In this document: positions 43,089 to 47,546 of the stretch, in pieces
Layout: the number at the start of each line of letters is the position of its first letter
Position numbering within the stretch: position 1 is the stretch's first letter
NCBI RefSeq assembly: GCF_001571145.1
Contig: NZ_BCTF01000010.1
Coordinates: forward strand, 1 to 64,000
Source of the DNA: Hydrogenophaga flava NBRC 102514
GTDB lineage: Bacteria; Pseudomonadota; Gammaproteobacteria; Burkholderiales; Burkholderiaceae_C
Reading direction: 5' to 3'
DNA length: 64,000 bases
Position numbers and translations under genes: made by a program
The notes under the pieces: model-generated
What the model was told of the DNA's origin: nothing
The model's database searches: none
The model's input: the letters and a program-made list of their open reading frames with translations, nothing else

Positions 43089-45056
43089 TCAGCGCGGCGG
43101 AGCCTCCATCAGCGCGCGCACCGCATCGGCCAGCGCGTCCATGCTGTCCTGCTTGCCCAACACGTCGGCCACGCCCGCCGCAGCCGCGGCTCCGAGCAGC
43201 GCCTCGTTCACATGCCCCGAGACGATGGCGATGCGCAAGCCGGGCCGCAGCGCACGCGCCGCCTGCGCCAGCTCCACGCCGCTCATGCCTGGCATGTTGT
43301 GGTCGGTCACGCACAGGTCCACCGGCTCGCGGCTGCTGCGGAACCAGGCCAGGGCCTCCTCGCCCGACAGGAAGGTGCTGACCCGGTAACCGTGCTTGCG
43401 CAACAGCCGGCCGGCCAGGAACACCAGCGCCTCGTAGTCGTCCACATAGACGATGTGCCGCCCCGGGGGCGCGGGAACGGGCGGAGTTGGCGCAGCCGGC
43501 GCAGGCGCCTCGGCGTCTGTGGCGCCCGAGGCCAGCGGCAGGAAGACGTCGAACCGGGTGCCTTCGCCCGGCGTGCTGTGCAGCGTGATCGCACCCTGGT
43601 GCGCCTTGACGATGCCGTGCACCACCGACAGCCCCAGCCCGGTGCCGCTGCCCGGCGCCTTGGTGGTGAAGAAGGGTTCGAACACGCGCTGCTGCGTCGC
43701 CTCGTCCATGCCCGGGCCGTTGTCGGCCACGCTCAGCAAGGCATAGGCACCGGGCGGCAGATGGCCCAGCCGCAGGGCCTCTGCCGCGTCCAGCGCCACC
43801 TCGTCCAGCCCCACGGTGATGTCGCCCGGCCGCTGGTCCAGCGCCTGCCAGGCGTTGGTGCAGAGGTTCATCAGCACCTGCTGCACCTGGGTGGCATCGG
43901 CCAGCACCGGCAGCGGCGTTGCGGCCAGGCGGGCGTTCAAGCGCACGCCCGCGGGCAGCAGCGAGCGCATCAGCCGCAGCGCCTCGTTCACCAGCGGCTT
44001 GAGCGGCTGGCGCTGCAGCTCCTGCGTCTGGCGCCGGCTGAAGGCCAGGATCTGCTGCACCAGCTGGCGCGCGCGGATGGCCGCGCGGTGGATCTCGGCC
44101 AGGCTCTCCTGGGCGGCGTGGTCCGGCCCCGCGTCCTCGCGCGCCAGGGCCAGGTTGCCGAGGATGGCCGCCAGCAGGTTGTTGAAGTCGTGCGCCACGC
44201 CGCCGGCCAGGGTGCCGATGGCCTCCATCTTCTGCGACTCGCGCAGCTGCGTCTCCAGCGCCCGCTGCTGCGCCTCGGCCTGCTTGAGTTCGGTGATGTC
44301 GGTGTGCGTGCCCACCATGCGCAGGGGCCGGCCGTCGGCGTCGCGCGCGATCACCATGCCGCGCGAGAGCACCCATTTCCACGACCCGTCCTTGCAGCGG
44401 ATGCGGTGTTCGTTGCGGTACAGCGCGGCGCGGCCCTCGAAGTGCGCCTGCCGGTCGGCCTGCATCTGGGCCACGTCGTCCGGGTGGGTGCGCTCGTCCA
44501 GCTCCTGTGCGCGCGGCGCCAGCTCGTCGTCGGTGTAGCCGTACATGGCCTTGATGCGCGGCGACACGTATTCTTCGCCGGTCACCAGGTTCCAGTCCCA
44601 CACACCATCCCCGGCGCTGTCCAGCGCCAGCTTCCAGAGCGCCTCGCTTTCCCTGAGCGCCAGCTCGGACTGCATGCGCTCGCTGATGTCCTCGACGGTG
44701 CCTTCGTAATAGAGCAGCCGCCCCTGCGGGTCGTACACCCCGTGGGCGTTTTCGTTCACCCAGCGGTGCTCTCGGTCGCAGTGGCGAATCACCTCGGACA
44801 CGAAGCCGCGCACGAAGCCGTCGCGCACCAGCTGCGCCTGGAACTCGGCCCGGCGGCCGGGTTGCACGTACCAGTCGCTGGCCGACCGGTTCACGTCGGC
44901 CAGCATGACCTGCTCGTCGCTGTAGCCGTTGATCTGCACCAGCGCCGGGTTGGCACGCAGCATCACGCCGTCCCTGGAACTGCGGTAGGCACCGATCGGC
45001 AGGAACTGGAACAGCGACGAGAAGTCCGCCACGCGGGCGTCGTGGTGATCCGGCAT
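43089..45056 (-). CDS. Hybrid sensor histidine kinase (PAS-PAS-HisKA-HATPase-REC)
   Basis: A 655-residue cytoplasmic kinase without membrane helices. Two PAS/PAC modules (residues about 9-135 and 140-265) lead to a HisKA domain with the phospho-His in GGVAHDFNNLLAAI. HATPase_c shows NLCTNAWQAL, VADNGPGMD and GTGLGLSVV. After a Pro/Ala linker, a C-terminal receiver has VYVDDYEALV, the phospho-Asp in VTDHNMPGMSG and Lys in LGKQ. No response regulator lies nearby, so it is an orphan. CACAAT sits six bases before the ATG at 45056. Confidence 0.88.
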   Translation of the reverse strand: MPDHHDARVADFSSLFQFLPIGAYRSSRDGVMLRANPALVQINGYSDEQVMLADVNRSASDWYVQPGRRAEFQAQLVRDGFVRGFVSEVIRHCDREHRWVNENAHGVYDPQGRLLYYEGTVEDISERMQSELALRESEALWKLALDSAGDGVWDWNLVTGEEYVSPRIKAMYGYTDDELAPRAQELDERTHPDDVAQMQADRQAHFEGRAALYRNEHRIRCKDGSWKWVLSRGMVIARDADGRPLRMVGTHTDITELKQAEAQQRALETQLRESQKMEAIGTLAGGVAHDFNNLLAAILGNLALAREDAGPDHAAQESLAEIHRAAIRARQLVQQILAFSRRQTQELQRQPLKPLVNEALRLMRSLLPAGVRLNARLAATPLPVLADATQVQQVLMNLCTNAWQALDQRPGDITVGLDEVALDAAEALRLGHLPPGAYALLSVADNGPGMDEATQQRVFEPFFTTKAPGSGTGLGLSVVHGIVKAHQGAITLHSTPGEGTRFDVFLPLASGATDAEAPAPAAPTPPVPAPPGRHIVYVDDYEALVFLAGRLLRKHGYRVSTFLSGEEALAWFRSSREPVDLCVTDHNMPGMSGVELAQAARALRPGLRIAIVSGHVNEALLGAAAAAGVADVLGKQDSMDALADAVRALMEAPPR

Positions 45057-45062
45057 CGCCAC

Positions 45063-45068
45063 ATTGTG
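45063..45068 (-). promoter_or_regulatory. -10-like element of the hybrid kinase gene
   Basis: On the minus strand CACAAT is followed by six bases and then the ATG at 45056, the leaderless geometry seen repeatedly in this window. The -35 is weak. Confidence 0.3.
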
Positions 45069-45163
45069 TCTTGCAACCCGAACCTCCGGCACCCGCCGGC
45101 CATCTGGTGGCCAGACCGTGCGTCCGGCGCTACAGTGGCCGTTTTCTCCCCGAGGACATCTCC

Positions 45164-45802
45164 TTGCACGTCACCCGCATCATCGCCGTGCGCCATGGCG
45201 AAACCGCCTGGAACCGCGACACCCGCATCCAGGGCCACACCGACATCGCCCTGTCCGACAAGGGCCGCTGGCAGGCCGAGCGCCTGGCCCAGGCCCTGCG
45301 CGACGAACCCATCGCCGCGTTCTACGCCAGCGACCTCTCGCGCGCCTTCGACACCGCCAGCACCACAGCCCGCGCCCACGGCAAGCCGGTGCAGACCCAC
45401 AAGGGCCTGCGCGAACGCGCCTTCGGCCGCTTCGAGGGACTGACCTGGGCCGAGATCGAGGCCCACCACCCGGAAGATTCGCAGGCCTGGCGCAAGCGCG
45501 TGCCCGACTTCGCGCCACCGGGCGGCGAGTCGCTGCTGCAGCTGCGCGAGCGGGTGGTCGCCGCCGTCGACGAGATCGCGGCGCGCCACCCCGGCGAGCA
45601 GCTGATGCTGGTAGCGCACGGTGGCGTGCTGGACGTGCTCTACCGCGCGGCCACGCGGCTGGAGCTGCAGGCGCCGCGCACCTGGGACCTGAGCAACACC
45701 GCCGTCAACCGCCTGCTCTGGACGCCCGAGGGCCTGGGCCTGGTGGGCTGGGCCGACACCGGCCACCTGCAGGACGGGGCGCTGGACGAGAGCACCACCT
45801 GA
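45164..45802 (+). CDS. Histidine phosphatase family protein (GpmB/CobC-like)
   Basis: A 212-residue phosphatase of the phosphoglycerate-mutase superfamily. The phospho-His motif AVRHGETAWN is near residue 8, with ASDLSRAFDTAS near 50, the acid donor region RERAFGRFEGLTWAE near 75 and VAHGGVLDVLYR near 150. No ATG or GTG fits the N-terminus; the start is a TTG at 45164 with GAGGA seven bases upstream. Possible substrates include phosphoglycerate, alpha-ribazole phosphate or others. The next gene follows after 16 bases. Confidence 0.88.
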   Translation: MHVTRIIAVRHGETAWNRDTRIQGHTDIALSDKGRWQAERLAQALRDEPIAAFYASDLSRAFDTASTTARAHGKPVQTHKGLRERAFGRFEGLTWAEIEAHHPEDSQAWRKRVPDFAPPGGESLLQLRERVVAAVDEIAARHPGEQLMLVAHGGVLDVLYRAATRLELQAPRTWDLSNTAVNRLLWTPEGLGLVGWADTGHLQDGALDESTT

Positions 45803-45818: not shown

Positions 45819-47546
45819 ATGAGCCCGAACCAGGTCATCGTGCTCGCCACGCCGGTGTTCCTGGTGCTCATCGCCATCGAGTTCTGGGTCGGCCGGCGGC
45901 GCGGGCGCAACACCTACGCGCTGGCCGACACGCTGGGCAGCATCGGCCTGGGCATGCTCAGCCGCATCGCCGACGTGTTCACGCTCGCGCTGCGCCTGGG
46001 CATCTACGTCTGGGTGCAGGACCACGCCGCGCTGTGGCAGGGCGACACCTTCTGGACCTCGCCCGCGGGCTGGCTGCTGGCCCTGGTGTTCTACGACTTC
46101 CTCTACTACTGGAACCACCGCCTCGGCCACGAGGTGGGTGTGCTGTGGGCCGCGCACGTGGTGCACCACCAGAGCCAGCACTACAACCTCTCGACCGCGC
46201 TGCGCCAGCCTGCCAGCTACGCGCTGCTGGGCTGGGTGTTCTACCTGCCGATGGCTCTGGCCGGCGTGCCGCCGCTGGTGTTCGCCGTGGTCGGTCTGGT
46301 GGACCTGCTCTACCAGTTCTGGATCCACACCGAGCAGGTCGGCTCGCTCGGCCGCTTCGACCGCTGGTTCGCCTCGCCCTCGAACCACCGCGTGCACCAC
46401 GCGGTGAACGACCGCTATGTGGACAAGAACTACGGCGGCATCCTGATGCTCTGGGACCACCTGTTCGGCAGCTTCGAACCCGAGGACCCGCAGGAGCCCT
46501 GCGTCTACGGCACACGCAAGCCGCTGCAGAGCTGGGACCCGGTCTGGGCCAACGCCGAGGTCTATGCGGGGCTGGCCCGCGACAGCGCGCGCGCCGGCCG
46601 CTGGGGCGACCGGCTGCGCACCTGGCTCAGGCCCCCGGGTTGGCGCGCGCCCGATGTGGCGGCCCGCTGGCCAGCCCCGGCCTTCGACCTCGGCGCCGTG
46701 CAGCGCTTCGCCCCACCGGCCAGCCGTGGCGCGCAGGTGCTGGCGGCGCTGGTGTTCGTGCTGCTGCTCGGTGGCGTGGCCTTCTTCCTCTGGACCGCCG
46801 ACGCGCGCGCCCTGCCCGGCAACCTGGTCTGGGCCGCCGCCCTGCTGGCCGGTCTCTGGACCCAGGGCGCACTGTTGCAGGGTCGCATCGGCCCGGGTCT
46901 GGCGCTGATGCTGCTCAGCGCGGCGGTGGCCACGCTCACCGCCGCCGAGGGCTGGACCATGCTGCACCGGGTGTTCAAGCCGCTGACCATGCTGATCGCC
47001 ATCGGCCTGGCGCTGCGCGCGGACGGGCGGGGCAAGGGCTGGCTGCTGGCGGCGCTGGCCGGCTCCCTGGCGGGCGACGCCTTCCTGATGTTCGAGGGTT
47101 TCTTCATTGCCGGCCTGGCGTCGTTCCTGCTGGCGAACCTGGCCTACATCATCCGCCTGCGGTCCGACGCGCCCTGGTTCGCCGACCGGCGGGCGCTGGC
47201 GGCGGTCGGCGCCGTGGGCCTGGGGATGTACGCCCTGCTCTGGAACGGAGGGCCATGGAGCGGCGGTCTGCCGCCGGGCCTGCGAGCGCCGGTGGCGGCC
47301 TATGTGCTGGCCATCGCGCTGATGGTGTCGCAGGCGCTGGGGCGGGCCCGCGTGCACGCCGATCCGGCGGCCTGGCGCGTGGCCGCGGGCGCCCTGTGCT
47401 TCATGCTCAGCGACACCCTGCTGGCAACCGACCGTTTTCTTGTGCCGCTGCCGGCGCGCGACCTGTTGGTGCTCGCCACCTACTACGCGGCGCAGGGCCT
47501 GATGGTGGCTGGGCTGTTGTCTGCGGCGCCGCGTCAGGGGGCGTAG
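45819..47546 (+). CDS. Fusion of alkylglycerol monooxygenase-like and lysoplasmalogenase-like domains
   Basis: A 575-residue membrane protein in two parts. Residues 1-~300 form a sterol-desaturase/fatty-acid-hydroxylase domain with di-iron histidine boxes H100-x3-H104, H113-x2-H116-H117 and H190-x2-H193-H194. YNLSTALRQ at 122-130 is typical of alkylglycerol monooxygenase (AGMO). Residues ~310-575 have eight hydrophobic helices and the YhhN/TMEM86 lysoplasmalogenase elements FKPLTMLIAI, GSLAGDAFLMF and MLSDTLLATDRF with conserved Asp. Both families attack ether lipids. Where AGMO has HHSSE, this protein has HHQSQ. It converges with the SPOR gene, overlapping by 13 bases. Confidence 0.8.
   Translation: MSPNQVIVLATPVFLVLIAIEFWVGRRRGRNTYALADTLGSIGLGMLSRIADVFTLALRLGIYVWVQDHAALWQGDTFWTSPAGWLLALVFYDFLYYWNHRLGHEVGVLWAAHVVHHQSQHYNLSTALRQPASYALLGWVFYLPMALAGVPPLVFAVVGLVDLLYQFWIHTEQVGSLGRFDRWFASPSNHRVHHAVNDRYVDKNYGGILMLWDHLFGSFEPEDPQEPCVYGTRKPLQSWDPVWANAEVYAGLARDSARAGRWGDRLRTWLRPPGWRAPDVAARWPAPAFDLGAVQRFAPPASRGAQVLAALVFVLLLGGVAFFLWTADARALPGNLVWAAALLAGLWTQGALLQGRIGPGLALMLLSAAVATLTAAEGWTMLHRVFKPLTMLIAIGLALRADGRGKGWLLAALAGSLAGDAFLMFEGFFIAGLASFLLANLAYIIRLRSDAPWFADRRALAAVGAVGLGMYALLWNGGPWSGGLPPGLRAPVAAYVLAIALMVSQALGRARVHADPAAWRVAAGALCFMLSDTLLATDRFLVPLPARDLLVLATYYAAQGLMVAGLLSAAPRQGA

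Follow-up and report, generated by a model that had tools for sequence, protein, structure and literature searches.

The closest described relatives of the protein considered here are alkylglycerol monooxygenase (AGMO or TMEM195; Enzyme Commission number (EC) 1.14.16.5) and the lysoplasmalogenases of the YhhN/TMEM86 family (EC 3.3.2.2). In human AGMO, nine histidines (H132, H136, H145, H148, H149, H201, H221, H224, and H225) and six further residues (Q162, D233, N235, Y236, W243, and D244) are essential, and replacement of Glu137 by Ala raises the Michaelis constant for tetrahydrobiopterin 18-fold (PMC3617469, PMC7911779). Four glutamates were mutated in the human study. A bacterial AGMO-like enzyme, PRUB680 of Pseudoalteromonas rubra, cyclizes prodigiosin by C-H activation (PMC6667630, PMC7822155). 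Characterized YhhN proteins of other bacteria are reported to be lysoplasmalogenases (PMC9052158, PMC11994398), and eight residues have been mutated in TMEM86A/B (PMC11994398). Here, we analyzed 64,000 nucleotides of Hydrogenophaga flava NBRC 102514 (contig NZ_BCTF01000010.1, positions 1 to 64,000; hereafter the window), in which a single plus-strand gene at 45819-47546 joins an AGMO-like domain to a YhhN domain. Judged by its predicted domains, the protein is a combination of two known families that we have not seen described before, and the searched passages of the open-licence PMC literature contain no description of an AGMO-YhhN fusion.

The gene is one open frame, from ATG to stop, that encodes 575 amino acids, and its start (MSPxQIIVLATPVF) is conserved in relatives. 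Pfam places FA_hydroxylase at residues 85-218 (E 5.1e-29; 101.8 bits against a cut-off of 31), within an AGMO-like di-iron monooxygenase domain comprising residues 1-300 (45819-46718), and YhhN (PF07947) at residues 383-566 (E 5.8e-41; 140.6 bits against a cut-off of 25.6). The latter match spans positions 2-182 of the 182-position profile, which places the protein within the YhhN family by that threshold. Both families were matched in 80/80 members of an alignment (A2) of the window protein and 79 relatives; the broken-frame locus L099 was excluded from this alignment and from the 80-protein residue counts given below. These matches bear out the sequence-only reading, an earlier note on this DNA, which had proposed that one frame joins an AGMO-like and a TMEM86/YhhN domain. 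A sequence search of the PDB with the fusion protein returned a single, insignificant match, and the minus-strand frames over the fusion region showed nothing remarkable by eye, a family search on them not having been made.

All 15 residues essential in human AGMO, together with the equivalent of Glu137, are kept in the window protein, with the published spacing except for one additional residue between Q162 and H201. The residues were mapped from the published human numbers by anchoring on motifs, the human AGMO sequence itself not being in the alignment; a single fixed offset was rejected, since it gave mismatches after position 162, whereas motif anchoring matched all residues. The first two histidine boxes and the segment YNLSTALRQ lie at residues 100-130 (46116-46208), and H170, the third histidine box (H190/H193/H194), D202, N204, Y205, W212, and D213 are encoded at 46326-46457. 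The nine histidines, that is, the eight-histidine FA_hydroxylase motif and a ninth, are present (9/9) and invariant in 80/80 fusion proteins, and Q162, D233, N235, Y236, W243, and D244 are likewise all found in the window protein (6/6). Variation among the 80 fusion proteins is confined to Y236 (kept in 79/80, with His in one) and the Glu137 position, which is Glu in 67, Val in five, Arg in four, Thr in three, and Gln in one.

The equivalent of Glu137 is E105, in the motif HRLGHE, beside the second histidine. The sequence-only reading had correctly located YNLSTALRQ (residues 122-130) and HHQSQ (residues 116-120), and its histidine-box di-iron AGMO-like domain is upheld by the presence of all essential AGMO residues. 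It had also stated that the AGMO glutamate is replaced by Gln in HHQSQ. That Gln, Q120, stands three residues after the second histidine of the HH pair, is Gln in 77/80 fusion proteins, and is a different position; since the pterin glutamate is retained as E105, the claimed Glu-to-Gln change is not supported for this residue. The same key residues are kept in nearly all unfused bacterial AGMO-like proteins, which are mostly 405-425 amino acids long and reach 63% identity over residues 4-356 (in genome G379). Glu at the 137 position was seen in 20/24 unfused proteins of the long type (340-450 amino acids) and in 1/8 of the short type, unlike the statement in PMC3617469 that no other FA_hydroxylase protein has it. 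The window protein resembles AGMO in its FA_hydroxylase family, its key residues, and the helices at the place of the sixth and seventh transmembrane (TM) helices, TM6 and TM7; it differs in being bacterial and in having a complete eight-TM YhhN domain, which substitutes for the last two TM helices of AGMO or has absorbed them.

The YhhN domain retains seven of the eight residues tested in TMEM86A/B. K387 (46977-46979) corresponds to K43 of TMEM86A, G419 and D420 (47073-47078) correspond to G81 and D82, and a stretch at 47388-47483 contains G524, S531, D532, and Y555, the equivalents of G182, S189, D190, and Y213. The Lys, Gly, Asp, Ser, Asp, and Tyr are invariant in 80/80 fusion proteins. The eighth residue, the equivalent of His104, is N440 (47136-47138; codon aac, cac in the related locus L036); His stands at this position in each of the 79 other proteins of the alignment. 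The window protein is thereby a natural variant useful for testing the YhhN histidine position. It shares with YhhN/TMEM86 nearly the whole profile and the eight TM helices, but is distinguished by its fusion behind an oxygenase, by a pair of additional TM helices ahead of the YhhN fold, and by the Asn in place of His104.

The AlphaFold model of the fusion has a mean predicted local distance difference test (pLDDT) score of 87.8 and a predicted template modeling (pTM) score of 0.86, and its surest part is the YhhN domain (pLDDT about 94 over residues 351-570). In the model, two TM helices (303-329 and 332-353; 46725-46877) stand at the place of AGMO TM6 and TM7, as also seen in the alignment with unfused AGMO-like proteins, and are followed by the eight helices, from 359-377 to 547-568, of the YhhN domain (residues 359-568; 46893-47522). 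Including TM1, this is the number reported for YhhN. In the alignment, most unfused AGMO-like proteins have two further helices after TM7 and then end, with mostly four C-terminal TM helices and no YhhN domain; where YhhN is present, it is a separate gene. The first YhhN helix of the fusion occupies the TM8 place of AGMO, and the nine-TM AGMO layout with four C-terminal TM helices is not found in the fusion. A shorter form of another YhhN protein without its first helix was inactive (PMC9052158), which suggests that the first YhhN helix of the fusion is probably needed. The idea that the AGMO C-terminus is a decayed YhhN was rejected on the alignment of the unfused proteins, which lack the YhhN residues. 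A PDB fold search with the whole model gave nothing below E 0.4; its top row, a proteorhodopsin, was not significant, though it recalls the G-protein-coupled receptor (GPCR)-like fold published for YhhN (PMC4602095).

The mean number of Lys plus Arg per loop in the 80 proteins alternates from TM6 onward: 0.39 (TM6-7), 1.02 (TM7-8), 0.06 (TM8-9), 2.76 (TM9-10), 0.07 (TM10-11), and 2.66 (TM11-12), with the last loops poorly separated (0.95, 1.32, 1.00, and 1.51 for the tail). This alternation agrees with a first YhhN helix that begins on the cytosolic side, suggesting that the histidine boxes are cytosolic and that K387, D420, S531-D532, and Y555 lie towards the outer half of the membrane. Such a YhhN site would be in line with the reported entry of the YhhN substrate from the periplasm (PMC9052158). 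Predicted sites on opposite sides of the membrane argue against a direct relay between the two domains. Therefore, of the two alternatives offered by the sequence-only reading, the inferred topology makes the dual-substrate enzyme the likelier and the two-step enzyme the less likely.

We favor the view, held tentatively and falling just short of an even call, that the fusion is a bifunctional inner-membrane enzyme of ether-lipid breakdown. The AGMO-like domain, with a predicted di-iron centre facing the cytosol, would use O2 and a tetrahydropterin and probably hydroxylates the O-alkyl carbon of alkylglycerols or lyso-alkylglycerophospholipids, releasing a fatty aldehyde. The YhhN domain, with a predicted eight-TM GPCR-like fold and its catalytic cluster in the outer half of the membrane, probably hydrolyzes the vinyl ether of lysoplasmalogens and would likewise release a fatty aldehyde. 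Together, the two domains would remove ether lysolipids of both classes, which most likely enter from outside the cell; the evidence suggests such dual-substrate scavenging rather than a two-step relay. In this proposal we infer the substrates, the cofactor, the topology, the outside origin of the lipids, and the dual-substrate rather than relay logic. The window genome contains one YhhN domain (that of the fusion), three FA_hydroxylase places, and one Biopterin_H enzyme, which shows another pterin user in this genome. A search of this genome for the plasmalogen desaturase family PF10520 gave no match, but its control was also silent, so that the result is not evidence of absence.

The distribution of the unfused genes supports a shared pathway for AGMO-like and YhhN proteins independently of the fusion, through co-occurrence and occasional adjacency. 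We defined AGMO-like proteins as matches to P0001 at E <=1e-20 in a draw of 299 genomes from the phylum; G402, matched by its YhhN alone, was dropped from the AGMO-like set (94 rows, 93 used). AGMO-like proteins were found in 93 of the 299 genomes and YhhN in 91. After removal of the four fused genomes, AGMO-like proteins were found in 89 and YhhN in 87 of the remaining 295, and both occurred together in 62, compared with 26.2 expected (p 2e-22). When only genomes of 3.0 Mb or more with an FA_hydroxylase were considered, YhhN was present in 59/81 holders of an unfused AGMO-like protein versus 15/90 with other FA_hydroxylase types only. Within one family (79 genomes), YhhN, detected by BLAST with the window's own domain and thus possibly biased toward similar YhhN, was present in 26/29 holders of the long type, 6/10 of the short type only, and 8/40 without either.

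Adjacency was seen in two families. In L183 (genome G048, belonging to a different family of the order), one strand carries in succession an AraC-type gene, YhhN, and an AGMO-like gene (L183:4074-7078), with one base between YhhN and the AGMO-like gene. In L184 and L185 (L184:5542-8459; L185:5430-8363), the AGMO-like gene is convergent with an AraC-YhhN pair. Pfam identified Arabinose_bd/HTH_18 and YhhN in all three loci, and FA_hydroxylase for the L183 gene. By tblastn, hidden Markov model search, and position, L190, L191, and L192 have the layout of L184; L193 retains the AraC-YhhN pair, from which its AGMO-like gene is separated by about 8 kb. L184, L185, and L190-L193 belong to one family, and the five tight layouts come from two genera. 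An AraC-type regulator beside YhhN and AGMO-like genes in two families suggests a regulated module. In three genomes of a further family (L022, L120, and L122), the AGMO-like gene is closely preceded by an AraC-type gene, and YhhN lies on a different contig. A divergent arrangement occurs in G029, a genome of the window's genus, between a short AGMO-like gene and an AraC-type gene that resembles the one in L183 (L026:1411-3424).

Several observations weigh against the favored ether-lipid enzyme. That the protein acts on ether lipids at all is deduced from its sequence. The AGMO-like and YhhN genes lie within 3 kb of each other in only 3/62 unfused genomes with both (G048, G433, and G451). The AraC-type regulator was found near none of the 80 named fusion loci (15 with a shortened flank), which are the best 80 of at least 558 relatives in a scan of named genomes, and the neighbors of the fused genes vary. 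The histidine-box loops are less certain in the model, with blocks of pLDDT 73-85 at residues 101-140 and 63-84 at residues 171-240. The E137 position is occupied by Val, Arg, Thr, or Gln in 13/80 fusion proteins, and the YhhN domain of the window has Asn at its key histidine. The short AGMO-like type, mostly without the Glu, is accompanied by YhhN as often (46/65) as the long unfused type (16/24; 25/206 in genomes with neither), and the link is thus not special to the Glu-bearing type. Phenylalanine hydroxylase (PF00351), first sought because of the cofactor question and later taken for comparison, is likewise found with YhhN more often than by chance (62 genomes versus 31.3 expected), indicating that taxonomy and genome size matter. 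The Fisher tests ignore ancestry, and no co-occurrence test used here corrects fully for kinship.

The AGMO-YhhN association nevertheless held in the strata with PF00351 (50 genomes versus 38.6 expected, p 5e-6) and without it (12 versus 3.0, p 1e-6). The association of PF00351 with YhhN was not significant within AGMO-like holders (p 0.063) but was seen in the rest (12 versus 4.9, p 0.0005). PF00351 itself was present in 70/93 AGMO-like genomes versus 40/206 others (25/28 for the long or fused type and 45/65 for the short type).

The strongest published point against inferring ether lipids from the fold is PRUB680. It is likewise bacterial and AGMO-like (compared here by its published description), and its prodigiosin substrate means that an AGMO-like fold alone does not imply ether lipids. 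An alternative that we take seriously, while thinking it somewhat less likely than not, is that the N-terminal domain oxidizes an acyl chain, an aminolipid, a hopanoid, or a hydrophobic secondary metabolite, that the YhhN domain takes another lysolipid, and that the two together remodel endogenous lipids or yield a product not known so far. Besides the PRUB680 reaction, this alternative draws on the best NCBIfam match of the fusion, the ornithine lipid hydroxylase OlsE (NF052566), which shares the FA_hydroxylase core (residues 29-222), although its score of 61.5 bits lies below the cut-off of 475 and the fusion is not a member of that family. It also draws on the lack of a universal E137 among the fusion proteins and on the statement that aerobic bacteria lack plasmalogens (PMC9052158). 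In contrast, every residue reported to be essential in human AGMO is kept, the partner family YhhN is known for cleaving ethers, and the reports of lysoplasmalogenase activity for YhhN of other bacteria speak for ether lipids.

It is also conceivable, but unlikely, that only the AGMO-like half is relevant in this strain and that the YhhN half, with Asn at the histidine site, is weakened or structural. The substitution is found in the window protein alone (1/80), and four unfused relatives of about 370 amino acids (L021, L118, L119, and L121, from two other families), which end at the first YhhN helix, indicate that the AGMO-like part can stand alone. However, the seven other key YhhN residues are kept, and the ratio of nonsynonymous to synonymous substitution rates (dN/dS) between the window and L036 is 0.22 for the YhhN part, compared with 0.18 for the AGMO part and 0.48 for the linking helix pair. 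In comparisons with L037, a more distant locus, dN/dS for the YhhN part was 0.54 for the window and 0.49 for L036, so that the high window-L037 value is not special to the window. Moreover, the His104-to-Ala change in TMEM86A was among the exceptions that did not fall below 10% of wild-type activity (PMC11994398).

The bacteria that carry the fusion include common inhabitants of water and soil. Among the 80 named loci, the best of at least 558, both domains were covered in 80/80 and a single frame was found in 79/80, the sole broken frame being L099 (Acidovorax sp. NO-1). Of 35 genomes of the same genus, 17 match the fusion in full length without a break of frame, 15 have no comparable match, and in three (G008, G020, and G030) the fusion is broken or cut by contig ends. 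The nearest of these best 80 is that of Hydrogenophaga pseudoflava CZa25-1, at 90% identity, and the genera represented are Hydrogenophaga, Acidovorax, Hylemonella, Delftia, Comamonas, Diaphorobacter, Polaromonas, Variovorax, Curvibacter, Caenimonas, Ramlibacter, Rhodoferax, and Xenophilus, with some loci lacking a genus name (for example, Burkholderiales bacterium). The scan retained the 80 best matches, and the fusion may thus extend beyond the genera listed. By tree labels, all of these genera belong to the Comamonadaceae except Hylemonella, which we take to be a member of the same family. In the broader draws, every full-length fusion came from the family of the window genome (3/150 genomes of the order and 4/299 of the phylum, window genome included).

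Trees were built with 24, 22, or 35 fused rows, hand-picked for spread from 102 rows (94 distinct); L024, L029, and L030 were included in one tree of 22 fused rows and omitted from the next. In a tree of 62 YhhN domains, the 24 fused domains form one clade (support 100/99), and this single clade of the sampled domains points to one origin of the fusion. In a tree of approximately residues 1-380, 35 fused proteins and the four 370-amino-acid relatives group together (100/94), with the unfused protein of G379 as the next branch outside. The trees place the four shorter proteins among the fused ones, and the alternative that keeps the fused proteins together was not rejected (approximately unbiased test, p 0.259 and 0.228). 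One suggestion, and only that, is that these proteins arose by fission and lost the rest of the YhhN half. An artefactual joining of two neighboring genes by a sequencing or assembly frameshift, which the sequence-only reading had named as a refuting condition to look for in other strains and for which only the broken frames of L014 and L099 might speak, has practically no probability left and was rejected, given the intact frames in the named and same-genus genomes and the single clade of the fused YhhN domains.

Among the neighbors of the fusion in the window, a histidine phosphatase gene (45071-45802, plus strand) ends 16 bases upstream and is not thought to be part of the system. It is found near 49/80 named fusion loci, within 250 bp upstream in 10/80, and similarly close in L036. 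In L042 (3734-4921) and L065 (3854-4981), a gene that looks like one for D-threonine aldolase stands between the histidine phosphatase and the fusion, and many other loci have a gap of similar size. Before the histidine phosphatase, on the opposite strand, the window encodes a hybrid sensor kinase (43089-45092, minus strand) with PAS, HisKA, HATPase_c, and receiver domains, for which tblastn gave a match in 14/80 named fusion loci. AGMO-like proteins with approximately 50% identity are also encoded on plasmids of Pseudomonas aeruginosa and Delftia (NZ_CP115197.1, NZ_LN809998.1, and NC_019312.1), where they are annotated as sterol desaturase family proteins.

The fusion could also make two difficult membrane enzymes accessible from a bacterium: according to a 2013 review, AGMO had until then resisted purification, and crystallization of a YhhN protein had not been achieved as of 2022 (PMC9052158). 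At a wider scale, it is possible, though we would put it below the balance of probability, that the AGMO-like protein, YhhN, and the AraC-type (Arabinose_bd) regulator form a widespread, unrecognized module for ether-lipid scavenging in aerobic Pseudomonadota. Its genes would be mostly scattered and sometimes neighbors or in one operon, and would have been fused once, in a lineage of the Comamonadaceae, into a protein that would act on alkyl ethers from the cytosol and on vinyl ethers from the periplasm. If true, such a module would give YhhN a physiological setting, lacking so far, in bacteria that do not make plasmalogens. The fusion and the co-occurring, sometimes adjacent unfused genes lead to the hypothesis of a dedicated enzyme pair with which aerobic bacteria would scavenge ether lipids or render them harmless, which may be a little-known route by which these bacteria use or detoxify such lipids.

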